Assembly (NCBI GenBank): GCA_008501765.1
Contig: QQUE01000012.1
Location: forward strand, 248,001 to 312,000
DNA: 64,000 bases
Direction: 5' to 3'
From: Calditrichota bacterium
GTDB lineage: Bacteria; Zhuqueibacterota; Zhuqueibacteria; Zhuqueibacterales; Geothermadaptataceae
Each line of letters opens with the position of its first letter. Within the stretch, counting starts at the first letter, position 1. This document shows positions 4,780 to 19,932 of the stretch, one piece after another. A program made the position numbers and the translations under genes. Under the pieces are notes generated by a model. That model searched no databases. It saw nothing but the letters and a program-made list of their open reading frames with translations, and was not told the origin of the DNA.

Positions 4780-5355
4780 ATGCAAAACAAGATTTTAGGG
4801 CGGGTTTATGTTCTCGGCGAAGATATCGATACAGATCAAATTATCCCGGCAGCACATTTGGTTTATAGCCTGGAAGACCCGGATGAACGAAAAAAATACG
4901 GGGAGTACGCTCTGTCCGGTGTACCGGCAGCACTGGCGGGATTGCCAAATGGCAATATGCCGTTTATCGAAAAAGGCAAGTCACATTCTGAATTTTCGAT
5001 TATAATTGCGGCTAAAAATTTTGGTTGCGGATCGTCCCGGGAACATGCACCGGCAGCGCTGGAAATTGCCGGTGTAAAGGCAGTCATTACCCCGAGCTAT
5101 GCCCGGATTTTTTACCGCAACGCAGTCGATGGTGGATTTCTCATTCCGGCCGAATCAGAAAAATCGCTGGTCGATTATTTTAAAACAGGGGACCAGGCCG
5201 AGCTTGATTTTATTAATAAAAACGTGACCAACACACGGACTGGAGAGAGTTTTTCTGTTAAAGAATTAGGTCAAGTTTCTCAAATAATCGAAGCGGGCGG
5301 CATTTTCGAATATGCCAGAATATCTGGCATGTTGCAGGAGAATACCCATGCCTGA
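4780..5355 (+). CDS. leuD: 3-isopropylmalate/(R)-2-methylmalate dehydratase small subunit
   Basis: Swivel-domain partner of LeuC, 191 residues. It shows the family start GRVYVLGEDIDTDQIIPA, the loop NFGCGSSREHAP that closes the active site, and PSYARIFYRNAVDGG. Slightly longer than the common 160-170-residue small subunit, with extra residues at the C-terminus. Its last 8 bases overlap the start of leuB (5348-5355), which implies translational coupling. Confidence 0.95.
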   Translation: MQNKILGRVYVLGEDIDTDQIIPAAHLVYSLEDPDERKKYGEYALSGVPAALAGLPNGNMPFIEKGKSHSEFSIIIAAKNFGCGSSREHAPAALEIAGVKAVITPSYARIFYRNAVDGGFLIPAESEKSLVDYFKTGDQAELDFINKNVTNTRTGESFSVKELGQVSQIIEAGGIFEYARISGMLQENTHA

Positions 5356-6430
5356 ATTGAAAAATATTACCACATTGCCCGGGGATGGAATCGGGCCGGA
5401 AGTGATGGCACAGGGTGTCGCGCTTCTGAAAGCGCTGGCTAGTCCGTTAGATATGCAGTTTGAATTTTCGGAAGATTTGGTGGGTGGTGCCTGCCTGCGG
5501 GAATTCAACATTCCTATCCGGGAAAAAACTTATACCAAATGCAAACAGTCGGATGCCGTGCTGCTCGGAGCTGTCGGTTCGCCGGAATATGACAACAACC
5601 CGTCCCACTTACGCCCGGAAAAGGCCCTGCTTGGGCTGCGTGCCGAATTAGGCGTCTACTGCAATTTACGCCCGGCACAACTTTACAATATCCTGATCGA
5701 CGCCTCCCCTTTAAAAAAAGAATTCATCGCCGGGTTGGATCTCATGGTTGTGCGGGAATTGTGTGGTGGGCTTTATTTCGGCAACCCTTCCGGGATTGAA
5801 AATACTGAAAATGGGCGAATCGGAACCAGTACCATGACCTATGGCGAGCAGGAAATCCGCCGTATTGCCATCAAAGCGTTCGAGCTCGCCGGTTTGCGCC
5901 GCGGTAAAGTTACTTCAGTCGATAAAGCAAATGTACTCGCTGTATCGCAGCTGTGGCGGGCGGTGGTCGAAGAGGTCGCCGGTGATTTCCCGGAAATTGA
6001 ACTCGAACATATGTTGGTCGACAATTGCGCCATGCAATTGGTCCGTTATCCCAAACAATTTGACATAATTCTCACCGAAAACATGTTTGGTGATATTCTC
6101 AGCGATGAAGCCAGCCAACTCACCGGCTCCATCGGCATGCTGCCGTCCGCCAGCCTCGGTGCTGGTACCCCGCTCTATGAACCCGTCCACGGAACGGCAC
6201 CAGATATCGCCGGCCAAGATAAAGCCAATCCGATTGCGATGATTAATTCCGTCGCCATGCTGCTGCATTATTCATTTGAGCGTCCGCAAGCGGCAAAAAT
6301 AATCAGCAATGCCGTTGAAGATGTGCTGCAGCAGGGCTATCACACTGGCGATATTCAAATAGAAGGAAAACTTGTTGGAACGAAAGAACTTGGTGAGCGA
6401 ATAATTGAAGAGACGCTGAAGAATCTGTAA
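5348..6430 (+). CDS. leuB: 3-isopropylmalate dehydrogenase
   Basis: NAD-dependent oxidative decarboxylase of 3-isopropylmalate (and of 3-methylmalate in the citramalate route); 360 residues. Motifs: LPGDGIGPEV near the N-terminus, LRAELGVYCNLRP for substrate binding, NMFGDILSDEASQLTGSIGMLPSAS holding the metal aspartates, and EPVHGTAPDIAGQDKANP for NAD. An in-frame ATG at 5312 exists inside leuD, but the start at 5348 is preferred: CAGGAG lies 9 bases upstream and MPELKNITTLPGDGIGPEV is the family N-terminus. Last gene of the operon; a hairpin follows. Confidence 0.96.
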   Translation: MPELKNITTLPGDGIGPEVMAQGVALLKALASPLDMQFEFSEDLVGGACLREFNIPIREKTYTKCKQSDAVLLGAVGSPEYDNNPSHLRPEKALLGLRAELGVYCNLRPAQLYNILIDASPLKKEFIAGLDLMVVRELCGGLYFGNPSGIENTENGRIGTSTMTYGEQEIRRIAIKAFELAGLRRGKVTSVDKANVLAVSQLWRAVVEEVAGDFPEIELEHMLVDNCAMQLVRYPKQFDIILTENMFGDILSDEASQLTGSIGMLPSASLGAGTPLYEPVHGTAPDIAGQDKANPIAMINSVAMLLHYSFERPQAAKIISNAVEDVLQQGYHTGDIQIEGKLVGTKELGERIIEETLKNL

Positions 6431-6436
6431 AATAAC

Positions 6437-6458
6437 GGGCAGCCTGATATTGCTGCCC
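6437..6458 (+). terminator. Hairpin after leuB
   Basis: GGGCAGC 6437-6443 pairs perfectly with GCTGCCC 6452-6458 around an 8-base loop, 6 bases after the leuB stop. There is no strong T-run after it, so it may stabilise the 3' end rather than act as a classic terminator. Confidence 0.6.
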
Positions 6459-6924
6459 CAATTCATTTCCCAACCAATATTGCCCCATCCTACTTTAAAT
6501 ATCAGTGTTGATCGGTGTCAATCAGTGGCGAAAACAATTTCCCGCAATATACAATTGCATAAGCCGAACTCAAATTAATCTTGATTTTAAATGGATTTAA
6601 ATTCAAATTAATTTAATAAAAACTATAAAATTAATTGTTAATTATGCTATATTAGGGAACGATAACAGGGAAACTCAAATAGGGCGTTCGATTGCAATAG
6701 CCTGTGTTTTCACCAATCGATTATATAATTTCTCGAAAATTATCAATCCAGATACACATGTCCAAAAAGAAAATTACACTTCAACCCCAAAAACAGGATA
6801 ATTATTCGAACCCAACAATTTGCACTTTCCAGTGTGCTAATTTATAACATGGCTACAAGATTAAAATCATTGAAGATACGCGTTGCCTAATTTATTAAAA
6901 TCATAACAAAAGGATGCTCACAAA
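6459..6924. other. AT-rich spacer before secreted gene, no gene seen
   Basis: About 470 bp without a convincing reading frame. The stretch near 6570-6655 is very AT-rich with repeated TTTAAAT/AAATTAA words, and probably holds the promoter of the 6925 gene. No clear -35/-10 pair could be assigned. Confidence 0.4.
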
Positions 6925-7881
6925 ATGAAATTTAGCTACAACATTTTCCGTGCTCGAAATTCGTTCCGCATTTTAAATTTGACCATTGTTTCCTGCTTCT
7001 TTCTTGCTATTGGCTCTCAAGTACTGATGGCACAAGATTACGAAATAAAACATGACAGCACCGCTTCTGCTGTCTGGTTTGGCGGCGATGACCGTGCCAA
7101 TATTGGCCCCCGCCATATCGGATTTGGGCAGGGTGTATATATCGATACTTCGATTACAATCGATAATTTTTCTTTCTTTTTTGGGCAGCATTTCGACTAT
7201 GCAGGTAATCCGGAAGGCTTTGGGCATGAAGTAACCCTTGCGTTAAATATCCGTGATACTTTGGGAACAGTCCTGCAAACCAGTTATACAACGTTAGCCG
7301 ATACTTTCAGTTATGGCTGGGCAACCTGGTCCGATCTCGCGTTCAATATCGATGGCAATACCACGCTTATTTTTACCTGCTACCTGGTTGGCGCCATCGA
7401 TTCAAGCCAATTTACCAGCACTACTGTCGGCGATCAGAATGCAAGTTATCCGGGTGGAATGCAGTATTCAAAAAACGGCAGTTCAGACGAAGATATGGAT
7501 GACTGGACGGATTGGAATCCATATGATCGCCGGGATGTAAGTTTTTGGCTGCAGGGTACATTTCACGAAACTACAGCGATCGAAGAAGCGATGAAAGTTC
7601 CAAACCAAATTTCATTGGCACAAAATTATCCCAATCCATTCAATCCGGAGACAACGATCCGGTACAGCATCCCGAATCAATCCCACACAAAATTGGAAAT
7701 TTTCAATCTTTTAGGACAGCGTATCACTACATTGGTAAACAAAACTGTTGCGGAGGGAGGGCATTCGATTCGCTGGCAAGGAAAAGACGATGCCGGCAAT
7801 GTTGTGCCGAGCGGTGTTTACGTGTACAAATTGCAAAATCAGGGATACATTAAATCAAAGAAACTCATCCTGATGAAATAA
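6925..7881 (+). CDS. Secreted protein with C-terminal type IX-like sorting domain
   Basis: Protein of 318 residues. N-terminal signal peptide (hydrophobic core about 18-34, ending near LMAQ). The middle (about 38-215) is an unrecognised, aromatic and Asp-rich beta domain, possibly jelly-roll. The last 90 residues are a canonical sorting/FlgD-like domain: LAQNYPNPFNPETTIRYSIP, LEIFNLLGQRI, a SIRWQGKDDAGN turn and PSGVYVYKL. Proteins with this tail are exported through the outer membrane and anchored at the surface in FCB bacteria. ATG 6925 follows AAAAGGA. It is monocistronic, with a strong terminator downstream (8028-8057). Confidence 0.85.
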   Translation: MKFSYNIFRARNSFRILNLTIVSCFFLAIGSQVLMAQDYEIKHDSTASAVWFGGDDRANIGPRHIGFGQGVYIDTSITIDNFSFFFGQHFDYAGNPEGFGHEVTLALNIRDTLGTVLQTSYTTLADTFSYGWATWSDLAFNIDGNTTLIFTCYLVGAIDSSQFTSTTVGDQNASYPGGMQYSKNGSSDEDMDDWTDWNPYDRRDVSFWLQGTFHETTAIEEAMKVPNQISLAQNYPNPFNPETTIRYSIPNQSHTKLEIFNLLGQRITTLVNKTVAEGGHSIRWQGKDDAGNVVPSGVYVYKLQNQGYIKSKKLILMK

Positions 7882-8027
7882 CCAGGCTCGTCCAAGTTGC
7901 GAACGCATTTTGTATTTAATTTTGAGTTCTTTCTTGCCTTTTCCCCATTGAAGTCAAGACAGTTTTTTGGCACCCTGTGATTGCAATCAATCGTTGCTTC
8001 CTTTTAAAACAGGTTCAGAAACAAATC

Positions 8028-8057
8028 AAAGCCCCGGCCCACCACCGGGGCTTTTTT
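8028..8057 (+). terminator. Intrinsic terminator (first of two identical copies)
   Basis: GCCCCGG pairs with CCGGGGC around a short CCCACCA loop, followed by six T. The 27 bases from 8032 to 8058 recur exactly at 16017-16043. Confidence 0.9.
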
Positions 8058-8058
8058 A

Positions 8059-8389
8059 CAAAATTTCATCCAGACAAGATTGAATTGTACTTTCCACAAA
8101 ATATATCGTTATAACATAGTATTTAAAACTATAATAAAGCATGAAAGATAAAAAAGTTTAATGTTCTTTACATTTTTCTTGATTTTATTAATTAATATCA
8201 TTAGCATAGATTGCAATTCGATTAATCCTGGTAAGAATTGCACTTTTAAGGGAAGAAACCAATAATGCGCTGAGCCAGTAAAACACCTGATTCCATTTTA
8301 TACCCCCACAAAAAAAGACCCAGGATCGTCATTCCGCTTTGTTATGACGAATCAATATGTTTTTTGAGTAGTCTCAAATAATATCAAGG
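8059..8389. other. AT-rich leader region before the secretin/chaperone cluster
   Basis: No gene seen. A small hairpin TCGTCAT ... ATGACGA lies around 8323-8347. The sequence is AT-rich with several TATAAT-like words, likely including the promoter for the cluster from 8528. Confidence 0.35.
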
Positions 8390-8476
8390 ATGATTCGTTC
8401 AACTTCATTAATATTGCTTCTTTTGCTAACTCGAAATTTAAGAGCTCAGGCTACTGAAGCAGAAAATTTATTATGA
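8390..8476 (+). CDS. Possible 28-residue secreted peptide or orphan signal peptide
   Basis: A short frame encodes MIRSTSLILLLLLT followed by NLRAQATEAENLL: a basic start, a leucine-rich hydrophobic core and an A-Q-A cleavage-like site, then a stop. The word AAGGA sits immediately before ATG, too close for an ideal ribosome site. It could be the remnant of a truncated exported protein or a real microprotein. Low certainty, because a 28-codon frame can arise by chance in AT-rich DNA. Confidence 0.25.
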   Translation: MIRSTSLILLLLLTRNLRAQATEAENLL

Positions 8477-8527
8477 ACAATTTTGAGAAACTGATCTATT
8501 AAACACTTTTGATGAAAGGGTACCCCC

Positions 8528-9862
8528 TTGATAAATCAAAAAATAGTTTTCAGATTTTTACTTATTTTCATTTTAAATTTAGTTTTTCATGCCAAGCTCC
8601 ATTCTCAGAGCTTATCAGTCGATCCGCCCTTGCTTGAGCTTTCAATTCAAGATCAAAATATAATGCATCCATTTCCACAGACCATCGAAGTTGCAGTGAA
8701 CTCAAATGCACCAAATTGGTCAATCGTATGCCAGGCCCAACCATTTCTATCAAACAATACCAGTGAAATTATTTCAGAGGAACATTTATTAATCCATCAC
8801 GAATATTTGCCAATCGAGGGCGAGGGCATTGAAGATGGTTATCAGAGGATGAATGGTATCATTTTTATTGCACAAGGGGGAAATACGAATGGTGTTTTCA
8901 CCATTGTAAATCACCTTGATTTTAAATTTGAACTGCCGCAACAATTCACTCCCGACGCCTATCAAAGTGAGATAAGAATTCAATATTCAGATAATCTTGG
9001 CGGCTCGGAAGAATTAATTATTAATGTGCTGGTCAATATTAAGAAATCACTCTCCTTAACTTCCAACTTCACAAATATCATTTTTAATGCTGTTGGAAAA
9101 CCAAGATTATTTGAGCAGGCTGGGGAATATAATATTGAACTCAGTTCAAATTACAATAATTGGGATTTGCGGTTCGAATTATCAAACTTTTCAAGTTCAA
9201 ATTTAGAAATGTTGTTTTCGGATATCATTTTCATGCAAATTAATTCTTCTGAATACAATGGGGAGTACGTTAGTCTAAAAGCGCCTTATGATTATAGACA
9301 TCATCTTGAATCGTTTAAATCACAACAATATTACAGCTTGATATCATTAAAATTTAAATTCATTACAAAATGGATCTATAGAACGGGACACTATGAATCA
9401 ATATTAAAGATTTATGCGCCTGAAAATTTAGAAGCGGCGCTATCGATCCCGGTTGAATTGGACATTGCAACAGTAAATAGTATGGAATTATCAGCAACCA
9501 ATACTTATTTCCACGTTGATGGCCCTCCAGATGTATGGGATTCAGATAAATCGATTAAAATTACCGTTGGATCAAATTGTGGAAACTGGTCAGTAATGTG
9601 CAAAGCAAGTGAGTTAGCAAATGTTTCTTATAAAATCCCGAAGGACAGAATATTTTTAAAACTTACCTCAAAAGACTATCGAATTGACGAAGGCGCCGGA
9701 TTGGGGTATCAGTCCTTAAAAAATTCTATTCAAATAGTTAATGGCTCAATGACGATGCCTGCGGAAATGAGTGAAATGTATTTTCGCCTAAAAACATTGG
9801 AAACGGATCGCCCAGGAAGGTATACCGGAACCATAACATTGACTCAATTAGTCAATCCATGA
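8528..9862 (+). CDS. Exported three-repeat pilin-like protein of the chaperone-secretin cluster
   Basis: Protein of 444 residues with a TTG start, supported by GAAAGGG 8 bases upstream; no in-frame ATG upstream. Signal peptide about 1-27 (ends LHSQ). The mature part shows three related domains of about 130-150 residues. Each starts with an L-S-V/L-S-L/M-E-L-S strand, has an NW-[SD] motif (PNWSIVCQA, NNWDLRFEL, GNWSVMCKA), and ends in a strand of the type G-x-Y-x-[GS]-x-I. The last reads RPGRYTGTITLTQL, typical of the final strand of fimbrial-subunit beta-sandwiches. Ends in an ATGA overlap with the chaperone-like gene at 9859. No database family recognised; role as adhesin or large subunit is inferred. 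Confidence 0.65.
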   Translation: MINQKIVFRFLLIFILNLVFHAKLHSQSLSVDPPLLELSIQDQNIMHPFPQTIEVAVNSNAPNWSIVCQAQPFLSNNTSEIISEEHLLIHHEYLPIEGEGIEDGYQRMNGIIFIAQGGNTNGVFTIVNHLDFKFELPQQFTPDAYQSEIRIQYSDNLGGSEELIINVLVNIKKSLSLTSNFTNIIFNAVGKPRLFEQAGEYNIELSSNYNNWDLRFELSNFSSSNLEMLFSDIIFMQINSSEYNGEYVSLKAPYDYRHHLESFKSQQYYSLISLKFKFITKWIYRTGHYESILKIYAPENLEAALSIPVELDIATVNSMELSATNTYFHVDGPPDVWDSDKSIKITVGSNCGNWSVMCKASELANVSYKIPKDRIFLKLTSKDYRIDEGAGLGYQSLKNSIQIVNGSMTMPAEMSEMYFRLKTLETDRPGRYTGTITLTQLVNP

Positions 9863-10653
9863 AACTATTAATTTACTTTTTATTTTATATTATCGTTCTC
9901 CCACCATGTTTTGCTCAAATTGAAAATATCAATTTTAGCATTTCTCCGCCTATTATTGACCTAAAAGTTCACTCCAATTCTTCGCGAACTATTTTCATAA
10001 CTATGAATAACTCAGGTACAGAACCATTGGAAATTTCAACTAAATTAGCCGAGTTGGGAATGACAATCAAGGGTCAGGCATTTCCCCAAGAACCAATTCA
10101 CAATCAATGGAGCTGCACAGACTGGATAATTCTACCTTTTCAAAAATACAGTCTTAAGCCTAATGAAAATAAAAAAGCAAAAATAGTAATTCGCATACCG
10201 GGTGGAGCAGACGGTGGGAAATATGGGATTATATTATTTGAAGCATTTAATAAACAAAAAAATGATTTAAACGGATTGAATTTAGTTGGGCGTTTGGGAA
10301 CATTAGTTTTATTGGAATTACGTGGCCCGAAAAAAATAGAAGGTATAATCGGAGATTTTTATTCTGAGAAAGTGGATGCCCATATATCTTTTAAAGTCAT
10401 TATTAAAAATAGCGGTAATATTCACTTTAAAGGAAAAGGATCCATCGTCATATTTAATGCCAAAAATAGAATTATTGACCGGGTAAATATAGAAGGTGGA
10501 ACTGGAACCATATTACCCGAAAGAGAGAGATTGTTTTCAGCTGTTTGGGCCAATTCACCTAAAATGATTAAAGGGAAATATAAAGCAGAAGTCCGGTTTT
10601 ATATTCCCGGAGGAAAGTCTGTACTTAAAAAAATAAACCAATTTACTATCTAA
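9859..10653 (+). CDS. Periplasmic chaperone-like (PapD/DUF916-type fold) protein
   Basis: Protein of 264 residues. Signal peptide about 1-19 (ends CFAQ). The first beta-sandwich (about 25-130) has the pattern SISPPIIDLKVHSNSS, then N-N-S-G-T-E-P, a Trp, L-K-P-N-E-N-K and GGADGGKYGIILFEA, as in PapD-like/DUF916-like exported chaperone domains. A second beta-sandwich (about 160-264) has IKNSGNIHFKGKGSI and ends in KGKYKAEVRF. The start overlaps the stop of the preceding gene (ATGA), so the two are co-translated. Inferred role: periplasmic escort for the beta-sandwich subunits encoded on either side. Followed by a 12-bp perfect hairpin. Confidence 0.6.
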   Translation: MKLLIYFLFYIIVLPPCFAQIENINFSISPPIIDLKVHSNSSRTIFITMNNSGTEPLEISTKLAELGMTIKGQAFPQEPIHNQWSCTDWIILPFQKYSLKPNENKKAKIVIRIPGGADGGKYGIILFEAFNKQKNDLNGLNLVGRLGTLVLLELRGPKKIEGIIGDFYSEKVDAHISFKVIIKNSGNIHFKGKGSIVIFNAKNRIIDRVNIEGGTGTILPERERLFSAVWANSPKMIKGKYKAEVRFYIPGGKSVLKKINQFTI

Positions 10654-10658
10654 TAGAA

Positions 10659-10699
10659 GAGCCGGTTATCTGGCCGTCAACCATGATGATAACCGGCTC
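10659..10699 (+). terminator. Hairpin terminator after chaperone-like gene
   Basis: GAGCCGGTTATC 10659-10670 pairs perfectly with GATAACCGGCTC 10688-10699. The T-run is weak (ATTCATTC), so it may allow partial read-through to the next gene. Confidence 0.7.
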
Positions 10700-10820
10700 A
10701 TTCATTCAAACCTATCGAAATCGATAGGTAAGTGGATATATTAATATACCACTTGAGGTTCAAAAATCAAATTATTTTCATTGGCCATCATTAGGTGTAA
10801 AATGAAAATAAACCGGTATC

Positions 10821-10920
10821 TGAGTCTCGTAGTATGGTTGGGATAATACTACGAAGAACGAGGTAGAAATTGCTTACCGTTGGCGGCACGGTCCCCGCAT
10901 CAATTTCTGCTAAATAAAGG
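10821..10920 (+). promoter_or_regulatory. Structured 5' leader of the subunit gene
   Basis: Two successive hairpins precede the 11012 gene. TCGTAGTAT 10827-10835 pairs with ATACTACGA 10846-10854. AGAAATTG 10865-10872 pairs with CAATTTCT 10901-10908 and encloses CCGT/ACGG (10877-10880 with 10888-10891). A GGAG word at 10918-10922 is not followed by a usable start. It does not match a riboswitch class known to me. A stable leader would fit an abundantly made structural subunit. Confidence 0.5.
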
Positions 10921-11011
10921 AGACAACTAAAAACAACTTATTTCAAACACATTTTCTAGCGGGTGAAAAAATTAATTAAAATTAACAGCTATGATAAATT
11001 TAGGAGTTATC

Positions 11012-11695
11012 ATGAAACGAATAGTTTTGATTGCTGCCGTGCTGTTGGCTTCTACTTCTCTATCTTTTGGTCAAACACCGGGAATGGGACTTTGGCCCTT
11101 CGATTGGGCGAATACCACCAGTTATGTTGATTATATGAATCCTTATGACGCACAAGGTTATGTTTATGATTATTCTACTTATCAATGGGTTGGAGGCACA
11201 GAAACTAACGATGGTCTTATCACAATAACTTGTGACATTGAAATGTATATGTCCATGCATTTAGATGCGACCGATGTATATTTTCACATAGCCGATGATC
11301 GTACCGCGATGGCTGCATATATTAATGGCTGGTTAGCTTCCAACAATGGACAATGGCTGTTTGTAAGTAGCGACCTAGGAAATAAAGACCTGGATAATCT
11401 CGAATATGTCGTTGATGGATTTGGACGTGATTTAGCTTATATGACAGGTAAGGGATATACAACGACCATCCCTGTAGAGTGGCTACTAAAAGAACCGGGC
11501 GATGTTGATTGGCGTCCCGGAATAGCTTCCATTGATGGTAATTCAGGCAATCTGCATGGATATACCTGGCTACTATCAGACGGTGAACCATGTACACACC
11601 CGTTCACCATAAAGATCCTTATTAAACCCGAATTTCATCAGCCTGACGGCCGTTATGAGATGGATCCCTTGCTTACTTGTTCCCCTGCTTTATAA
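11012..11695 (+). CDS. Small exported subunit-like protein (candidate major structural protein)
   Basis: Protein of 227 residues from the ATG at 11012, chosen over an in-frame ATG at 10991 because AGGAG lies 5 bases upstream and the sequence then begins with a clean signal peptide (MKRIVLIAAVLLASTSLSFGQ). The mature chain is rich in Tyr, Trp and Asp. It ends in KILIKPEFHQPDGRYEMDPL and then LTCSPAL, the final-strand pattern of pilin-type beta-sandwiches. It has its own structured leader and a perfect terminator downstream, the arrangement expected of a highly expressed subunit between chaperone-like genes. No named family recognised. Confidence 0.6.
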   Translation: MKRIVLIAAVLLASTSLSFGQTPGMGLWPFDWANTTSYVDYMNPYDAQGYVYDYSTYQWVGGTETNDGLITITCDIEMYMSMHLDATDVYFHIADDRTAMAAYINGWLASNNGQWLFVSSDLGNKDLDNLEYVVDGFGRDLAYMTGKGYTTTIPVEWLLKEPGDVDWRPGIASIDGNSGNLHGYTWLLSDGEPCTHPFTIKILIKPEFHQPDGRYEMDPLLTCSPAL

Positions 11696-11707
11696 ATTAG
11701 ATTAAAC

Positions 11708-11739
11708 AAAGACACCTGGTCCCAAAATCAGGTGTCTTT
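11708..11739 (+). terminator. Intrinsic terminator after subunit gene
   Basis: AAAGACACCTG 11708-11718 pairs perfectly with CAGGTGTCTTT 11729-11739 around a 10-base loop. The AAA arm makes it usable on both strands. Confidence 0.8.
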
Positions 11740-11759
11740 AAAATTAAGGGTAGAATCCG

Positions 11760-13385
11760 ATGTTTCGAAAAATAATATATTATTTGCTACTTCCTTTTCT
11801 TATTCTAATCTGTTTTTCTACCATAAATATTCTTGTTGCACAACAAATAAAAATGGGCCCTCCCATCATTGAATTTGCTACAACCCCGGGTTCACAAAAG
11901 TCCTTTTATGTTAATATTTTGAATCAATCTGATATCGACGTTCAGTGCTCAATATTTATAAAGAGCATGATTTTAACAAAGCAGGGCATGCCAGTTCCGG
12001 TTGACAGCTCGACACGAAGTGCAGCTAAATGGCTGTCTGTTCAAGGGGATGAGTTATTTGTTTTAAAAGCTAAGGAAAATAAAAAAATCAGGTGTTCATT
12101 TTTTCCTTCATTCCGGGCAAAACCCGGTGGATATTATGGCATGATTGTATGTAGAACAATCGCACCCCAGAAAATTGTTGGTCGATCTAAAAATTTTAGT
12201 ACCAACGTCAACCTGCAATTTCAATTCTCCAGCGTTGTCATGGCCATAATAAAAGGACCAAATTTGCAGGCTCACATTAATCCGGAAGCACCAATAATTT
12301 TCGGCGGTAACCGTACTGGAAAACCAGAGCAAAGAAAATGGCATATTGAAATTCCCGTAAAAAATGATGGAAATATTCATGTTGTTTTGGCTGGTCAAGT
12401 TCGGTTGCTAAGTGAAGCAGGTCATGAAATAGAAAGAATGGATTTAGTTGCCGGGAGGGGGTATTTATTACCCGAACAACGCAGAACTTTTAAAGGCATT
12501 GGGAAAGGGCCACTACCTGATGGAACCTACATCGCTCAGGTTAATATTGGGCAAGTTGAAATAAAAAAATTCGCTTCCGAGCGAATCCCATTTTACATAC
12601 TTAATGGGCAGGTATTTCCCGGCTCTCCGAACAAATCAGATTTAGCTACGCTATCAACAACCAGCCAGGGATTTATGCTCAACCATTCATTCTTAGAAAA
12701 TGAATGCATTGCTGGCGGCAAACAATTTAAAGCGATTAAAATCACGAATATTACCAATGAGCCGCTGCATATTGCGAGTCAAGTAGTAAAATGGAGCCAT
12801 GATAAAAATGGCAACATTTCCTTTTCCGAAAATTTGGACAATATTCGTAGTTTAGAAAAGAATATCTCCATTTCACCTGACAGTTTCACAATTGCAAAAA
12901 ACAGAAGTAAAAACATTAAACTTGTTATTAGCTTACCAGCTAATTCTTCAGGGGAATATTTTGATGCAATACGATTCAATCGGGTAGGAGTGCCTATCCC
13001 CAAAAGTGTAGATTTATTATTATCCCAATCCGTATTATTGGCCACCAAGGCCAAAACAACCGAAAAGCTCAGCGCCCAATTTATTGATTTGAAGACCCAA
13101 AAAACGCCTTCTCAAGGACTATTATTCTCACTCCACCTAAAAAACACCGGCAATACAATGATCTATCCGCACGGATATATCAGCATTTTTGATAGCAAAA
13201 ACCAGAGAGTTGATGATCCTTTAAATTTCGGTGGCGATGTCTATATTTTGCCTGCGAACGAAAGAATTATGGAGATTGAATTCAAGAGGTTTCTCCCGGC
13301 TGGAAAGTATCGACTTGAGCTGGTTTGTGAATACTCCCAAACTGCCAAAGCAATCCAAGAAACTTTGGAAATCGCAGTAAAATGA
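11760..13385 (+). CDS. Tandem chaperone-like exported protein
   Basis: Protein of 541 residues. Signal peptide about 1-28 (ends VAQQ). The mature part contains two units, each resembling the 9859 protein. Unit 1 (about 30-280) has MGPPIIEFATTPGSQKSFYVN, AKWLSV, ENKKIRCSF, KPGGYYGMIV, KNDGNIHVVLAGQV and DGTYIAQV. Unit 2 (about 305-541) has GKQFKAIKITNITNEPL, NRSKNIKLVISLPANSSGEYF, LKNTGNTMIYPHGYI and PAGKYRLELV. This is a fusion or duplication of the two-domain chaperone-like fold. Inferred to handle a second class of subunit or to line the exit path. It is followed by the LTD protein 12 bp later and belongs to one operon with the secretin. Confidence 0.6.
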   Translation: MFRKIIYYLLLPFLILICFSTINILVAQQIKMGPPIIEFATTPGSQKSFYVNILNQSDIDVQCSIFIKSMILTKQGMPVPVDSSTRSAAKWLSVQGDELFVLKAKENKKIRCSFFPSFRAKPGGYYGMIVCRTIAPQKIVGRSKNFSTNVNLQFQFSSVVMAIIKGPNLQAHINPEAPIIFGGNRTGKPEQRKWHIEIPVKNDGNIHVVLAGQVRLLSEAGHEIERMDLVAGRGYLLPEQRRTFKGIGKGPLPDGTYIAQVNIGQVEIKKFASERIPFYILNGQVFPGSPNKSDLATLSTTSQGFMLNHSFLENECIAGGKQFKAIKITNITNEPLHIASQVVKWSHDKNGNISFSENLDNIRSLEKNISISPDSFTIAKNRSKNIKLVISLPANSSGEYFDAIRFNRVGVPIPKSVDLLLSQSVLLATKAKTTEKLSAQFIDLKTQKTPSQGLLFSLHLKNTGNTMIYPHGYISIFDSKNQRVDDPLNFGGDVYILPANERIMEIEFKRFLPAGKYRLELVCEYSQTAKAIQETLEIAVK

Positions 13386-13397
13386 AAAGAGTTAGTT

Positions 13398-14606
13398 ATG
13401 AAAAATATAACCATTTTAATAGCTACTTTATTGTTAGGAATCACCTCTTTGTATTCCCAACATGGTGCCCCAAATTTTGTTACAATAAACGAAATTAAGA
13501 CTTATGGGCCAACCAGCCAATATGATGAGTTTATCGAATTGTTCAACGTATCTGACTCCACATTTGATTTATCAGGATATGTTTTAAATTCGTATAATAA
13601 ATACGGTATCTTAAATAAAATAATTTATAAATTTCCTGAGGGCACTCACATTGAACCTTTCCATTATTATTTGTTATCAACCACAGAGTCAACTGAGAGT
13701 AAAATACCGGATGCCGTTATGCAACAAGGCATTCTTTCGCACGGACAACTGATACTGATTGACTCCACAAAAACTGATACTTTAGATGCCGTTGCCTGGG
13801 GTCAGGTTGATTCAGTAATTACTAATGAAGGAAATCCCGCGCGATACATAACATCGATCGAAGGCCCTCCAGTTTCCCCTATGCTGATTCCTGGACCGAT
13901 TTGGAGCGTTGAACGAGACTCGCTCGGAACCGATTCGAATAACAATTTTACAGATTTTAGAATGCGGAATTACACAACCCCAATGAACTCTACCGATTCA
14001 TTGAACTTGATCCTGCCTAACTCCTTAACTGCTTCAATTAATACTGATAATTCGGTTTTGCTCACATGGAAGACCCTAAACACAAATAAGGATTTAAGAT
14101 TTCAAATCTATTATAAATTCTTGGATGATTCAGTATGGAATGTAATAGTTCCAGGTGACATGCTTATGTGCTATACTTCGAAGGACACAAATTATTTTAA
14201 CTTTGAAAGTTCGAATATTAACTTAAGCCAAAAATGTCAATTAAAAATAAAAGAAATCGATTTTACCCAGCGGCCACGATTTACAAAACCGATTACATTA
14301 AATTCATCATCAGGGAATCAAAAAATAATCACTTTTTCATTAAAACAAAATTATCCCAATCCATTCAAAAATGAAACCAATATTTTCTATGAAATCTTGG
14401 AAAAATCTTTCATCTCAATTTCGATTTTCAATCTAAGGGGACAAGAAGTAAGATCAATTTATACTGGTTTTGTTGAGCCGGGGACTTATAACAGGTCATG
14501 GGATTCCCGAAATACAAATGGCGATACAGTTCCATCCGGAGCGTACTTTTGTGTAATGCACACTAAACACAATAAAATGGCAATAAAAATAATCCTACTA
14601 AAATAA
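13398..14606 (+). CDS. Secreted lamin-tail-domain protein with sorting domain
   Basis: Protein of 402 residues. Signal peptide about 1-20 (ends LYSQ). A lamin-tail-like domain follows (about 26-170): VTINEIKTYGP, YDEFIELFNVSD, FDLSGYVLNS, then HYYLLST. The middle is of Fn3-like character (about 205-300: NSLTASINTDNSVLLTWK). The C-terminal 90 residues are the sorting/FlgD-like domain (KQNYPNPFKNETNIFYEI, SISIFNLRGQEVRS, RSWDSRNTNGD, PSGAYFCVM). The same LTD fold is found in three copies in the protein at 44157. Ribosome site AGTTAG is weak; spacing to the previous gene suggests co-transcription. Confidence 0.75.
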   Translation: MKNITILIATLLLGITSLYSQHGAPNFVTINEIKTYGPTSQYDEFIELFNVSDSTFDLSGYVLNSYNKYGILNKIIYKFPEGTHIEPFHYYLLSTTESTESKIPDAVMQQGILSHGQLILIDSTKTDTLDAVAWGQVDSVITNEGNPARYITSIEGPPVSPMLIPGPIWSVERDSLGTDSNNNFTDFRMRNYTTPMNSTDSLNLILPNSLTASINTDNSVLLTWKTLNTNKDLRFQIYYKFLDDSVWNVIVPGDMLMCYTSKDTNYFNFESSNINLSQKCQLKIKEIDFTQRPRFTKPITLNSSSGNQKIITFSLKQNYPNPFKNETNIFYEILEKSFISISIFNLRGQEVRSIYTGFVEPGTYNRSWDSRNTNGDTVPSGAYFCVMHTKHNKMAIKIILLK

Positions 14607-14645
14607 ATTCAGTTAATCTGAGTCGACAGCCGGAGCAATTAATTT

Positions 14646-15896
14646 ATGAAAACGAAAAACTACTCTGCTGATTCTATTGCATTTACAATGATTTTAATAT
14701 TGATATTGTGCTTTATTTTTGGTCCAAACTTATCCGCTCAAAATGTCGAAGCAAATAAAGATCAGCATCTTGTTTCAAATGTGTTTTTTGAGACTGATTT
14801 ACGACAAGCATTAAAGGATTTATCAAATGAAGCTGGCATTGCCATAATTCCTGATAATACCGTACAAGGGCTCATTACTTTAGAAGTTGATTCAGTTCCG
14901 TTGGAAGACGTTTTAATAAAGATACTAGCTCCAGGAGGCTACACATTTAAAATGATTGATGATTTTTATTTAGTTGGCTCGCCTCTACCGGAGAATCCTT
15001 CTTTTCCATTATTAACCGAAACTGAATATTTTAGCCCAGATTACTTACTAGCAGAACAAATTCCCAATTTACTGCCAGTATATTATCAGTCCTTTATTCG
15101 AGTAAATGAAAAGACGAACTCAATTGCAATCACATCCTCTAAAAAAATAATAGCTAAAATCAAAGAAAATATTGGAAAAATTGATGTACCTCCGAAGCAA
15201 ATCTCTATTGAGGCGATCGTAGCTGAAATGTCCAACGAAGCGAAAAAAAGCATAGGTATTGATTGGGGATGGTATGGGACTGGAGATCAGAAAAATTTAA
15301 AATTATCGACGAACTTGAATTCAATTAGCAATGATTCGAGCATTGTTGGACAATTGGTTAAAACTGGTATTAAGTATAAAACATTTACTTATGACGTCAT
15401 CTATTCACTCCGCGCACTGGCTTCTTCTGGGGAGGCGAATATTAGGGCCAATCCAAATGTCACGACTATTAATGGCCAAGAAGCAAGTATATTCATTGGA
15501 ACTGAACGTTATTTTTCAATAGTTACCGGGCCTGTAAACTATCCCTATGCTCGAGTTGAAAAAATACCCGTTGGTATTAGCCTAAAAATCACTCCAAGGG
15601 TTTCTTCAAAAAATGAAATTACAGTTAAAATTGAAGCTGAAGTAAGTGAAGTGACTGCAATTGGAGCCGCTGATCTACCACTCGTTACGACACGAAAAGC
15701 ACAAACAAATGTAAGAGTAAATATTGGAAATATTATTGCTTTAGGGGGCTTATTTCAAGAATCAAAGATCGAAATTAAGAAGAAAATTCCGTTTTTGGGC
15801 AGTATTCCAATTCTTGGTTATTTATTTAGCCACACACAAATCGAAAATGTAAAAAAAGAAATTAGTATTTTTATCGCGCCAACTATTATCGAATAA
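14646..15896 (+). CDS. Compact secretin (GspD/PilQ superfamily)
   Basis: Protein of 416 residues. Signal peptide about 1-32 (ends LSAQ). An STN/N0-like domain (about 45-105: TDLRQALKDLSNEAGIAIIP, VPLEDVLIKIL) is followed by one N1-like unit (about 128-185) and the C-terminal secretin barrel. The barrel shows SIEAIVAEMS, the inner gate region ANPNVTTINGQEA, and the family signature of VNIGNIIALGGL followed by KIPFLGSIPILGYLF and EISIFIAPTII. Secretins form large outer-membrane pores. This one has far fewer periplasmic domains than type II/IV pilus secretins, and no ATPase, inner-membrane platform or prepilin lies near. Here it would export the neighbouring beta-sandwich proteins (inference). 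Confidence 0.85.
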   Translation: MKTKNYSADSIAFTMILILILCFIFGPNLSAQNVEANKDQHLVSNVFFETDLRQALKDLSNEAGIAIIPDNTVQGLITLEVDSVPLEDVLIKILAPGGYTFKMIDDFYLVGSPLPENPSFPLLTETEYFSPDYLLAEQIPNLLPVYYQSFIRVNEKTNSIAITSSKKIIAKIKENIGKIDVPPKQISIEAIVAEMSNEAKKSIGIDWGWYGTGDQKNLKLSTNLNSISNDSSIVGQLVKTGIKYKTFTYDVIYSLRALASSGEANIRANPNVTTINGQEASIFIGTERYFSIVTGPVNYPYARVEKIPVGISLKITPRVSSKNEITVKIEAEVSEVTAIGAADLPLVTTRKAQTNVRVNIGNIIALGGLFQESKIEIKKKIPFLGSIPILGYLFSHTQIENVKKEISIFIAPTIIE

Positions 15897-16016
15897 TATG
15901 TGGGAGAATTTGATCTGCACAATTTTAATTGCCGTCACTCAAAACATTTTATTAATCAGGCTTAGCTAAATCCAGCTTTAAAGCTCCTCCGGTTAACTTT
16001 GCATATGCAGCGAGAA

Positions 16017-16042
16017 CCCCGGCCCACCACCGGGGCTTTTTT
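16017..16042. terminator. Intrinsic terminator (second identical copy), between convergent genes
   Basis: Same stem, loop and T-run as at 8032-8058, identical over 27 bases (16017-16043). It lies between the secretin gene (+) and the RND gene (-). It ends 3 bases before the RND stop and could serve the + strand transcript. Confidence 0.85.
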
Positions 16043-16045
16043 ATA

Positions 16046-18535
16046 TCACTTCACACTTTCTGTGCGGTCAAATTTTAGAATTGTAGCGGGCAGTAAAATG
16101 AAATCTGCGAACAGCGCCAGCGCGATAACCATGGTGCAGTAAAATGCCATATCCGAATTGAGGACGAAATCAGAGTAAGTTAATGCTCCAAAACCCGCGA
16201 TGAGAATGACGGATGTGAAAACCAGCGGTGCGGCAACTTGCCGAAAAGCGTAGAGTATCGCTGCTTTTTGGTCGAGCCCTTCGTGCTTGCCTTTGAGATA
16301 TTTTGTCAAATAATGCACCGTATCATCCACCGCAATTCCCAAAGTAATCATGCCGACGATGGCCACTGACATGTTCACCGGAATTTGCAGTAAACCAATG
16401 ACACCGAAAACGAATGTGATGGGCCAAATATTGGGTATCATACTAAAAAAGCCGATTCGCAAAGATTTGAAAGTAATCATCAAAACGATGGTGATGAATA
16501 CGAATGAGATCATCAGACTTTTCAGCATCCCGGGGATAGCGACCGTGAAAAGTCGCCCAAACATGATGGGCACACCCAGGGCAGGAATCGCTGATTCAGG
16601 ATTGTTGTCCTGTAGCCATGCTTCAATTTTTTTCGCATGCCCCATAAGTTCAAATGACGAAATTGAGCGCACAAAAGCGGTCACCCGCGTACTGCGATTG
16701 CGTATGTCGATCTGATTTGTCAACGACATTCCCTGCGGCAACGACATCTGATAAAGCAATAAGTACTGGGCAATCAACCTGCGGGCATTTATTTTCTCAC
16801 CGTTTTCCGAAAGTTCGCCATCGACCGGGATGCGGTAATAGGCGGGATCATCGCCGTGCATGGTTTTATTGATACGTTTGATAATATCAACAATGCTGGC
16901 GACATAAGTGATCTCAAATTCCGGGTGCTCCGAGATAAAATCTTGAAATCGTTCCAGTTTGTTCAAGTAGGCCGGATCGTAGATACCATTATCTTCCCCT
17001 GAATCAAAATTGAACTCGATGGGGTTGACGCCAATTATATTTTCGTCGATGTATTTGGTGGCTTGCCGGAATTCTGTGTGATCAGCGAAATATTTGACGG
17101 CCGTATTGTCCATTTTAATTTGAAAAACAAAATAGAGTGCAAAAACGCTGGTCACCAGCGCGACATAGCGGATACTTTTCTGATATTTATAGACAAAATT
17201 GGCCAGCCATTCCCAGCCTTTTTCCTCGTGGGCTTCAATCGCTGAATGATCCACTTCCCGTTTTCGAAATGGCAACAGCGACAAAAAAGCGGGCAGCGTA
17301 AATACCGAGGCAAAAAAAGCATAAAGCGTACCGGAGCCTGCAAAGAGTCCCAAATCCTGAAACGGGGGAATGTCCTGCACCATCAAGCTGAAGAAACCGA
17401 TAGCTGTCGTTATCGAGGTGATCATACACGGAAGAAAGTTTTTCTCAACTGTGTAAATTACCGAATGGCGTTTATCGAGGCCGTTGCGCAATCCGCGAAA
17501 AAAAATGGCCAATACATGCACTGAATCGGCGATAGCGACGGCAACGAGCATTTGCACAACATTGGTTGAAGCGTTGGTCAGCGATAAATTCATCAAGCCG
17601 ATAAACAATGCGATGGGGAAAACAACCGAGGTCAAAAGCAATAAAACTGGCGAAATCGTGCCCCAGAACGAACGCAGTGAGACTGCCAAAAAGATCATGA
17701 TAAAAAGGAACATAAACGGAATCAGGTTTTGCACATCATCCTGGGCAAATTTTTGAAATGCCGTATTCATCATCACCGTTCCAGCCAGGCGAATTTCGAT
17801 ATCCGGATTATAATAGATATTGGCTTCCACCTCGCCGCTCTCACCGATAACCTCAGGCTCGGTAAACTTTTTCACAAGTTTTTCCATTCCCTCGCGCGCC
17901 TCTAAGAATCCATTGGGGAAATCACGCGGAATGATCACCTGCAACTGAATTTGTGTGATGTCGCCTTTTTGTGAAATGAGAAATTTCGGCATCAGCGGAT
18001 CTTCGAGGGCGCGTTTCTTTTTTTCCAGCATTTCCGGGCGTGTCAATGGAATGTCATCGATAAAATCTTCCACCAGGAGATCGTCATCATCCACATAAGT
18101 ATAGTTGAAATTTGTCATTCCGGATACCCGGCTGACGTAAGGCAATGTCCACGATTGGTCGGTAATATATTTGAGCGTCGCCAGGTTGCGGTTGTTAAAT
18201 AAATCGCCGTTTTTCGCCACCACAACGATAATCAAGTTTTCCTCTTTGGAGAAGATCTGCTGAAATTTATCGTAAGCGACAAGCTCCGGATTATCGTCTT
18301 CAAACCAGACATGATAATCGGCATCAAAAAATGGCGGAGGGGTGACATGCGAAGAATCCGCCGCCAGCGGATTGTTGCGAATTTTTGCCATATACGCCCC
18401 GTGCTCGCCCACCACTTTGCCCCGATTCGCCAATCCGGCAACGAGTCCGATGAGCACGACACAGTTGAAAATGATGATAGGCCAGCGAAACTTCAGTACA
18501 AACTTCCCGATTCGAGTCGGTGTATCACCAAACAT
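16046..18535 (-). CDS. RND/MMPL-family exporter
   Basis: Protein of 829 residues with two homologous halves. Each half has one N-terminal membrane helix, a large periplasmic domain and a bundle of five or six helices (about 12 in total). The helix-4-type motifs are visible as VAVAIADSVHVLAIF in the first half and GITLGIAVDDTVHYLTK-like sequence in the second, with the aspartates expected for proton coupling. This is the SSD/MMPL class of RND proteins that move lipids or hydrophobic compounds across the inner membrane. Start ATG 18535 is preferred over a TTG eight codons upstream because AAAGGA is correctly spaced. It is the last gene of an operon with an outer-membrane protein and a LolA-like protein, suggesting a lipid or lipoprotein export route. 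Confidence 0.9.
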   Translation of the reverse strand: MFGDTPTRIGKFVLKFRWPIIIFNCVVLIGLVAGLANRGKVVGEHGAYMAKIRNNPLAADSSHVTPPPFFDADYHVWFEDDNPELVAYDKFQQIFSKEENLIIVVVAKNGDLFNNRNLATLKYITDQSWTLPYVSRVSGMTNFNYTYVDDDDLLVEDFIDDIPLTRPEMLEKKKRALEDPLMPKFLISQKGDITQIQLQVIIPRDFPNGFLEAREGMEKLVKKFTEPEVIGESGEVEANIYYNPDIEIRLAGTVMMNTAFQKFAQDDVQNLIPFMFLFIMIFLAVSLRSFWGTISPVLLLLTSVVFPIALFIGLMNLSLTNASTNVVQMLVAVAIADSVHVLAIFFRGLRNGLDKRHSVIYTVEKNFLPCMITSITTAIGFFSLMVQDIPPFQDLGLFAGSGTLYAFFASVFTLPAFLSLLPFRKREVDHSAIEAHEEKGWEWLANFVYKYQKSIRYVALVTSVFALYFVFQIKMDNTAVKYFADHTEFRQATKYIDENIIGVNPIEFNFDSGEDNGIYDPAYLNKLERFQDFISEHPEFEITYVASIVDIIKRINKTMHGDDPAYYRIPVDGELSENGEKINARRLIAQYLLLYQMSLPQGMSLTNQIDIRNRSTRVTAFVRSISSFELMGHAKKIEAWLQDNNPESAIPALGVPIMFGRLFTVAIPGMLKSLMISFVFITIVLMITFKSLRIGFFSMIPNIWPITFVFGVIGLLQIPVNMSVAIVGMITLGIAVDDTVHYLTKYLKGKHEGLDQKAAILYAFRQVAAPLVFTSVILIAGFGALTYSDFVLNSDMAFYCTMVIALALFADFILLPATILKFDRTESVK

Positions 18536-18585
18536 ATATTTTCCTTTCGATTTGAACAAAATCTGTTTTAAGAAAAAATTTTATG

Positions 18586-18640
18586 GCCACAGAGAACACG
18601 AAGCTATTAATGGACACTTTAACTCTGTGTTCTCTGTGGC
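18586..18640. repeat. CCACAGAG-type palindromic repeat, copy 1
   Basis: GCCACAGAGAACAC 18586-18599 pairs perfectly with GTGTTCTCTGTGGC 18627-18640. It belongs to the CCACAGAG/CTCTGTGG family of dispersed intergenic repeats. Two relatives occur at 25287-25370 and 32941-33041. Confidence 0.7.
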
Positions 18641-18660
18641 GAAATCTATAATTAACAATC

Positions 18661-19932
18661 TTAAAAATTATAAGCCAATTCAAGAATAAGCCGGTCAGCA
18701 TGGGAGAATAAATCCAGCGGAGAACTCTCGACAATCAGATCATTAAAGGCAATTTTAATGGTAAAAATCTCCCGCAGCCGTTCTTCGTATTCAATGCGCA
18801 GCAAAATATCTTTCTTTTCATAATCATAAAAACTGCCCATTAACAGGCTGCGGTCGCTGACGTTGTTAAAAACATAGCGCAATCCGGAAAACAAATAGGA
18901 TTGAAATGGACGAAAGCCCTCCAGTTCCCCGGATTTTTTTCCCGCATCCGAATCCCCGATAATTTCAGCAATAAATCCGATATCATGATTTTCGATCAGG
19001 GCTGAATAGAACGTATATTCAAAACCAATCGTGTAGGCCAGGTAATCTGGCTTGATTCTTTCTCCCAGCTGGTTGACAATCTCTCGCTGAAAAGCTGTGT
19101 GCACGGTTTCCCCTTTTACCAGCCAGGCCCCCAATTCACCCTGAAAAGTAAGCCCTGTTTTATGGACCAAACGATATTGATGCTGAAATTCCATCGCGGC
19201 GTTAAATTTTGGCAGCAGGCCGGGAAAGCGATTGTAGCCATTGAAATAAAAGAATCGCGTATCGATATTGTCGAAAAATGGCCGCTGAAAACTCAGGGCA
19301 ATCTGTGGCCGCCATTCATCTTTGGCGCTTTGAAATTGATGGGAGCTGGCGTCATTGAGTACATTCAATCCGAAAGAAAACCGATTTTCATCAACCGGAA
19401 ATCGGGTTGCACGCATCCGGGCCAAATAATATATCTCGAAAACCTGCTCGGTTTCTGTCGGCAGGATCAGCCGTGTCCGCACGGCCAGTTCACCAAATTT
19501 ATCTGCGTCCAGAAAATCACTTTCTAAATCAGTCTGGTTGAGGAAATCCGCCTGACTGATGCTCTCCACAGTTTTCCAGGAAAAGGTTTGCATGCCGGCA
19601 CGGACCTCGAAATTGTCGCGAAAATAATCGAGGTAAAGGTCCTCAATTTCATAGCGGTTGCGATCTGCATTTTCAAAATCATACAATAAACGCTGATTCA
19701 AGCGAATTTCCAAAGGAGCGTCAAAAACCAGTGTCATGTCGAGAGCGCCGCACAACGAATTCACCGATTCCGGCATTTTCGCGTCCGGCGCTTTGCGCGG
19801 AAAATACCACGTGTCAATTCCAAGATTGCCTTTATAATTTAAGCTGACCGATTCACTTAAATTGATATTTTGTGCAGCTGCCGGACTGGCAAAAGCAATT
19901 AGAGAAAGCAGCAACACCAGAACTCTATTCAT
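18661..19932 (-). CDS. Outer-membrane beta-barrel protein
   Basis: Protein of 423 residues. Signal peptide 1-20 (ends AAAQ), then alternating beta strands throughout and a C-terminal strand ending in Asn-Phe (LILELAYNF), the BAM recognition pattern. Shape and operon position recall the DUF1302-like outer-membrane proteins that accompany RND/MMPL exporters and LolA-like proteins. Transcribed between the LolA-like gene and the exporter. Substrate unknown. Confidence 0.75.
   Translation of the reverse strand: MNRVLVLLLSLIAFASPAAAQNINLSESVSLNYKGNLGIDTWYFPRKAPDAKMPESVNSLCGALDMTLVFDAPLEIRLNQRLLYDFENADRNRYEIEDLYLDYFRDNFEVRAGMQTFSWKTVESISQADFLNQTDLESDFLDADKFGELAVRTRLILPTETEQVFEIYYLARMRATRFPVDENRFSFGLNVLNDASSHQFQSAKDEWRPQIALSFQRPFFDNIDTRFFYFNGYNRFPGLLPKFNAAMEFQHQYRLVHKTGLTFQGELGAWLVKGETVHTAFQREIVNQLGERIKPDYLAYTIGFEYTFYSALIENHDIGFIAEIIGDSDAGKKSGELEGFRPFQSYLFSGLRYVFNNVSDRSLLMGSFYDYEKKDILLRIEYEERLREIFTIKIAFNDLIVESSPLDLFSHADRLILELAYNF

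Follow-up and report, generated by a model that had tools for sequence, protein, structure and literature searches.

A conserved gene cluster pairing WxLIP/PapD-type chaperones with a secretin in a Calditrichota bacterium, a candidate module for the export of surface proteins

Organization of the gene cluster

A gene cluster of about 8 kb was analyzed that lies in a stretch of 64,000 nucleotides from a Calditrichota bacterium (contig QQUE01000012.1, positions 248,001 to 312,000; called "the window" in the following). Its six open reading frames (ORFs), named A to F, are all located on the plus strand between positions 8528 and 15896 (Table 1). Two of them encode candidate subunits, two encode predicted chaperones, and the last one encodes a secretin, and the combination is suggestive of an export module. 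As the first-pass annotation, which was made from the sequence alone, had stated, all six ORFs are present and all six proteins have a signal-peptide-like hydrophobic N-terminus according to a simple hydropathy script; the same script found a second transmembrane-like stretch or a lipobox in none of the six. Also as stated there, a Pfam scan of the ORFs of positions 4780-19932 recognized no gene for an usher, an ATPase, a prepilin or an inner-membrane platform, and no linked platform protein or (pseudo)pilin was recognized among these ORFs. The gene set is not due to chance, because both the set and its order recur in other genomes. The start of gene C is likelier at position 11012 (227 amino acids) than at position 10991 (234 amino acids).

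Table 1. Features of the cluster, with positions in the window
Feature	Position	Strand	Description
Gene A	8528..9862	+	large subunit-like secreted protein, 444 amino acids, TTG start
Gene B	9859..10653	+	predicted single-module chaperone with two immunoglobulin-like domains, WxLIP/PapD type, 264 amino acids
RNA leader of gene C	10659..10754	+	three hairpins, conserved
Gene C	11012..11695	+	small subunit-like secreted protein, 227 amino acids
Gene D	11760..13385	+	predicted tandem chaperone, two complete WxLIP/PapD-type modules, 541 amino acids
Gene E	13398..14606	+	LTD protein with sorting domain of the type IX secretion system type, optional member, 402 amino acids
Gene F	14646..15896	+	predicted dedicated secretin, N0, N1 and secretin domain, 416 amino acids
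27-bp direct repeat	8032..8058		terminator-like, left cluster edge
27-bp direct repeat	16017..16043		terminator-like, right cluster edge, identical to left copy

The chaperones B and D

The Pfam search assigned D to the family WxLIP_PGBD/DUF916 (PF06030) with an E value of 1.6e-6 and 28.5 bits, above the cut-off of 27.3. B matched the same family weakly and under the cut-off (E value 0.019). The comparison of B with each half of D by hhalign (99.9%) revealed that they form one family, and hidden Markov models identified two modules also in the D orthologues. The Thermotoga-type D proteins introduced below pass as WxLIP_PGBD (E value 1e-8); a PDB search with them gave no match. An internal or C-terminal transmembrane-like stretch was found by the hydropathy script neither in B nor in D.

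An AlphaFold2 model of B, based on an alignment of 20 modules, had a mean predicted local distance difference test score (pLDDT) of 91.3. Its best match in the PDB was the WxL-interacting protein (WxLIP) 9i25 of Enterococcus faecium (Z 17.1, root-mean-square deviation (rmsd) 6.0, 230 residues). Other PapD-like proteins came next, as did the fimbrial chaperones CfaA (Z 12.7), Caf1M (12.6), YadV (12.5) and FimC (about 12) of the chaperone-usher pathway. The rmsd of 5-6 to the fimbrial chaperones is put down to the angle between the domains. A profile comparison aligned the N-terminal domain with six fimbrial chaperones of Escherichia coli K-12 (probability 60, E value 8.6e-5). A sequence profile of the B/D modules retrieved from the PDB mostly short, spurious matches to designed propellers, and WxLIP at E values of 0.004-0.005. 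In the putative G1 donor strand a partly alternating pattern was seen, i.e., residues 140, 142, 144 and 146 of B are mostly hydrophobic in the 20 modules and residues 141, 145 and 147 mostly are not.

Family assignment and modelling thus support the prediction that B and D are chaperones of the WxLIP/PapD type with two immunoglobulin (Ig)-like domains. The first-pass annotation had called B a PapD/DUF916-like chaperone and D tandem chaperone-like, and had proposed to compare a predicted structure of B with PapD; the chaperone type and the Ig-like chaperone fold were supported, and what it had overlooked is that the nearest chaperone relatives are the WxL-interacting proteins of Gram-positive bacteria. 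In the WxL system a strand of the WxLIP hairpin fills a gap in the β-sandwich of the WxL domain according to an AlphaFold prediction (PMC10599100), a principle that it shares with donor-strand complementation.

The secretin F and its pairing with tandem chaperones

F contains a Secretin domain (Pfam, E value 2.2e-41) and has weak matches to STN and Secretin_N; its scores with the models of GspD and PilQ are far below the curated cut-offs. It had been described as a minimal secretin, and it is indeed short, but it has an N0-N1-secretin build and is not a bare barrel. In a phylogenetic tree, from which four long branches had been removed, a single branch separated 27 cluster secretins from 21 others of the type II secretion system (T2SS)/GspD, type IV pilus (T4P)/PilQ and HofQ types (support 96/91, 96% of bootstrap trees). 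Judged from its sequence, F is therefore a dedicated secretin that is set apart from PilQ, GspD and HofQ.

In the first survey, D was present in 10 of 147 genomes. A secretin gene was found on the same strand within 1.3 kb of the tandem chaperone in all ten readable loci, in contrast to none of the 26 loci with single-module chaperones only; both counts include related loci. Loci found later mostly agree with this pairing. Exceptions are L198, which has the secretin on the opposite strand, and L196, where the only secretin-like gene is a half-secretin; L194, L195 and L199 are difficult to read due to weak domain calls. In several loci (L191, L195, L199, L200 and L203, all assigned to Thermotogota, and L031/L072/L073) a half-secretin gene directly follows the cluster secretin; it encodes STN/N0-N1 domains and a different C-terminal part, without a Secretin domain.

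Recurrence of the cluster in other genomes

Family matches were found in 10 of 82 genomes of the phylum, and, the genome of the window itself apart, all strong matches were in other families. Five further genomes of the KSB1 type contain the cluster. The full order A-B-C-D-E-F was present in two loci (L027, L028), a third (L029) lacks only E, and the clusters L025/L147 and L026 are interrupted by contig ends. One genome (G046) contains a second, diverged copy (L032). When one genome of each GTDB species was scanned, canonical C was restricted to metagenome-assembled genomes named candidate division KSB1, UBA2214 and AUK292.

The core of subunits, tandem chaperone D and secretin was found in at least four further lineages beyond the KSB1 type. 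These core loci belong to the three-genome phylum of G126 (L031, L072, L073), to G354 (L099, L149), G392 (L197) and G292 (L115, in which the secretin was identified by a six-frame search), and to the phylum of G274, in which 51 of 103 genomes had a match. The order of the genes differs in L099 (secretin-C-D). Thus, the proposed search for co-occurrence of secretins and chaperones revealed conserved neighborhoods in several lineages, without T2SS or T4P machinery genes in the cluster. The first-pass annotation had named two outcomes as speaking against its proposal, i.e., a lack of Ig-like chaperone or pilin folds, and homologues always inside complete T2SS, type III secretion system or T4P loci; neither was observed.

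The phylum of G274 is taken to be Thermotogota, and one of its genomes, G484, is presumably Thermotoga maritima MSB8. Its operon (L185) encodes an A-like protein, two C-like subunits, D (a tandem WxLIP-like chaperone), the secretin and an outer-membrane-like protein, and it probably represents the same system. The T. maritima gene TM1117 has, differing from this, been listed as pilQ for natural competence (PMC5637354). We infer that TM1117 is the cluster secretin of the G484 operon, and its assignment as pilQ may need revision.

The putative subunits A and C

An NW[SD][ILV] motif, which is only a resemblance to WxL, occurs in each of the three repeats of A. The C-terminus of A is GRYTGTITLTQLVNP, that of C is QPDGRYEMDPLLTCSPAL, with the final stretch GRYEMDPLLTCSPAL, and the C-terminal region of A aligns weakly with C (hhalign probability 47, E value 2e-4). 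For both proteins no Pfam or NCBIfam family was found, and the profile comparison with E. coli pilins gave nothing. Orthologues of A are present in L026-L029 and L032, and weaker ones in L031/L072/L074/L149/L115. C is the best conserved member of the cluster, with 54-70% identity in the KSB1 genomes.

Two patterns were picked after inspection of the proteins, and orthologues were counted in the first of them. C-termini like those of A and C, with a G-x-aromatic strand at a distance of 13-15 residues from the end of the protein, were seen in 38 of 111 secreted genes near chaperones vs. 6 of 295 distant ones. The N-terminal aromatic motif of the C type, which occurs in several lineages (e.g., YIYDPSTYSW, WRWDGNTW, YRYDSETGRW), is a post hoc pattern that was present in 26 of 82 secreted neighbors of tandem chaperones, compared to 6 of 61 such neighbors at single-module loci and 91 of 675 in the background. 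All in all, A and C look like subunits.

Gene E

Pfam identified an LTD domain (E value 5.8e-14) and a Por_Secre_tail sorting domain in E, and TIGR04183 was above its cut-off (1.8e-7). The genome of the window contains SprA (738 bits), so E is probably exported by the type IX secretion system (T9SS). E is present in L026-L028 and L147 and absent from L029, L031, L100 and L185; it is an optional accessory that is dispensable to the core. Its two domains had been recognized in the first-pass annotation, its optional status and its probable exit of its own had not.

RNA leader and genomic island

The gap between B and C (326-469 nt) is kept in all six orthologous loci. It contains leader hairpins at 10659-10699, 10710-10729 and 10730-10754, the first of which is nearly invariant. 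Of 29 base pairs compared over the six loci, six have changes on both sides. The structured leader that had been proposed for C is thus real and conserved, with compensatory changes; the terminator of C proposed along with it turned out to be a weak hairpin (about 11708-11737) that is absent from the terminator scan list. The leader had no Rfam family at gathering or relaxed thresholds. A widespread genomic element was considered and rejected, because the genome contains just a single clear copy.

The identical 27-bp repeats exactly flank the AT-rich cluster and have no third match in the window. The enclosed DNA has a GC content of 35.9%, lower than any other stretch of this length in the window (43.3% overall), and two other genomes of this genus lack the cluster. 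Repeats, low GC and absence from these two genomes make it likely that the cluster was acquired as an island, and it may have been inserted at a duplicated terminator. A further gene for a secreted protein, which carries a sorting domain of the T9SS type, is located immediately upstream of the island (6925-7881). On its downstream side the minus strand encodes an RND transporter of the MMPL/HAE3 family (16046-18559) and an adjoining outer-membrane-porin-like protein (18661-19932).

A chaperone-secretin module and its possible mechanism

As far as gene content and sequence comparison tell, the pairing of chaperone and secretin as a conserved composition is well supported, because the cluster recurs, the pairing was seen in 10/10 vs. 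0/26 loci, the secretins form a separate branch, an usher is absent, and the nearest match to a T2SSE-type ATPase in the genome of the window is about 155 kb away on the same contig. On balance, it is probable that the cluster encodes a dedicated chaperone-secretin module for surface proteins, with F in place of an usher. The first-pass annotation had proposed such a replacement; it holds for the composition, and passage of A and C through F and the formation of fibres are what we infer from it.

PapD lends a strand to pilins, and the module could work accordingly. A and C would enter the periplasm by Sec and would be bound there by B and the tandem chaperone D, the F1-G1 hairpin strand of which would complete the β-sandwich of the subunit. 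The chaperones would hand A and C to F, the outer-membrane exit, for assembly at the surface. Folding or strand exchange would drive the export, for which no dedicated ATPase would be needed. The major subunit is probably C, which would be regulated by its own RNA leader, A would be a larger, minor or tip component, and E an optional accessory that probably leaves by the T9SS.

Several points weigh against this proposal. The model of C was poor (pLDDT 57), probably due to too few diverse relatives. Its top matches (VIA) were largely chaperone-usher pilins, but with Z values of 5-7 (DraD 7.3, PapG pilin domain 7.0, FimG 6.4); because the model is poor and all pilin-like matches are under Z 8, the fold of C is unproven. 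Searches of the PDB with sequence profiles of the two proteins A and C gave no pilin and no credible match, and a Pfam hmmscan with E values up to 1 gave no WxL family for either of them. The recurrence statistics count related loci. In addition, Thermotogota and a second phylum have an extra outer-membrane-barrel-like or half-secretin gene after F, the product of which might itself be the exit or act as a partner. Finally, to our knowledge all secretins described so far serve machines with an energized inner-membrane part, and strong matches to T2SSE-type ATPases exist elsewhere in every carrier genome tested except G027.

In a first alternative, the secretin would be an accessory exit that is plugged into a T2SS or T4P engine encoded elsewhere, A and C being substrates and B and D escorts, without an usher-like mechanism. 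F shares the secretin domain with T2SS GspD, T4P PilQ, HofQ and filamentous phage pIV, and the short N0-N1-secretin build with the latter two. The ATPase matches just mentioned speak for this alternative, as does the three-genome phylum of G126, where only a few kb separate the cluster from pilB/pilT/pilC. However, another secretin is encoded elsewhere in those genomes, and the same is true for the carrier genomes in general, except G027, in which the contig of the cluster ends ahead of the secretin. G027 (85% complete) has the cluster and only weak, partial ATPase matches. Furthermore, the cluster secretins are a separate group in the tree, which did not include pIV, and the cluster lacks a linked ATPase, a platform, pseudopilins and phage assembly genes. 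Without a linked engine the cluster is not a T2SS or T4P, and a borrowed engine is unlikely.

Alternatively, the cluster could be the version of a WxL system in bacteria with an outer membrane, in which A and C bind either to peptidoglycan or to the envelope on its periplasmic face, B and D are permanent structural partners, and the secretin has a structural or anchoring role. The WxL/WxLIP clusters of Enterococcus, Lactobacillus and Listeria (PMC10599100) resemble it in several respects, i.e., D is above the WxLIP_PGBD cut-off, B is closest to 9i25, and a small and a large partner protein are combined with a WxLIP, the hairpin strand of which has the predicted role described above. They differ in that the organism studied here has an outer membrane, a secretin in the cluster, and both single and tandem chaperones. 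The WxL-cluster criterion is at least two WxL-domain proteins, and neither A nor C has a detectable Pfam WxL domain; B and D also lack the C-terminal transmembrane helix, so the cluster is not a member of this group. Anchoring alone hardly explains the strict pairing with a secretin, and we regard this alternative as decidedly improbable. That unrelated genes for secreted proteins were merely collected on an acquired island, as low GC, flanking repeats and absence from two same-genus genomes might suggest, is very hard to reconcile with genes that stay together across distant lineages, are sometimes reordered (as in L099), and in many loci have abutting or overlapping chaperone and secretin genes.

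Relation to chaperone-usher systems

In its mode of action the proposed chaperone-secretin module would be closest to chaperone-usher export, the exit being a secretin. With type 1 and P pili, archaic Csu and class 5 CFA/I systems it shares periplasmic two-Ig chaperones of matching fold (VIA Z about 12), small secreted subunits with a C-terminus that looks like a β-strand, and a locus without an energized platform. It differs by the tandem duplication of the chaperone, by subunits that are not recognizable as pilins by sequence, and by the secretin in place of a PF00577 usher, which is missing from the locus and the genome. Without an usher the cluster is not a member of this group. PF00577 was found in none of 13 carrier genomes, and the E. 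coli control was positive.

Loci with a single-module chaperone more often have a protein of 770-1030 amino acids with Ig-like C-terminal domains. At eleven loci (L068, L069, L101, L102, L106, L108, L111, L113, L117, L118, L150) single-module WxLIP/PapD-like chaperones of many different lineages were found beside subunits of 150-190 amino acids, and there the large protein has CarboxypepD_reg/SdrD_B-like C-terminal domains and no PF00577 match. These proteins are possibly an unrecognized class of ushers. A profile comparison of the outer-membrane proteins of about 900 amino acids with E. coli ushers gave a best probability of only 16%, and therefore this role is unproven. One genome (G354) contains secretin-type clusters (L149, L099) as well as a single-module cluster with a large outer-membrane-like protein (L150).

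Implications

In the literature searched, which did not extend to preprints and most subscription journals, no description of a chaperone-secretin system, or of a secretin that is combined with PapD-like chaperones and donor strands, was found. We know of no strand-donating chaperones of outer-membrane bacteria that work without ushers, and of no secretins other than exits for energized machines. Tentatively, and with somewhat less confidence than doubt, the clusters may represent a separate class of pathways for outer-membrane export and assembly, leading from a tandem strand-donating chaperone via Ig-like subunits to a dedicated secretin without an ATPase, in several lineages with two membranes including cultured Thermotogales. 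If the proposed module is real, the pairing of chaperone and secretin would provide a route to the cell surface that has not been described so far, it would link the WxL proteins of Gram-positive bacteria with the fimbrial chaperones, and some genes of Thermotogales annotated as pilQ would belong to another system.

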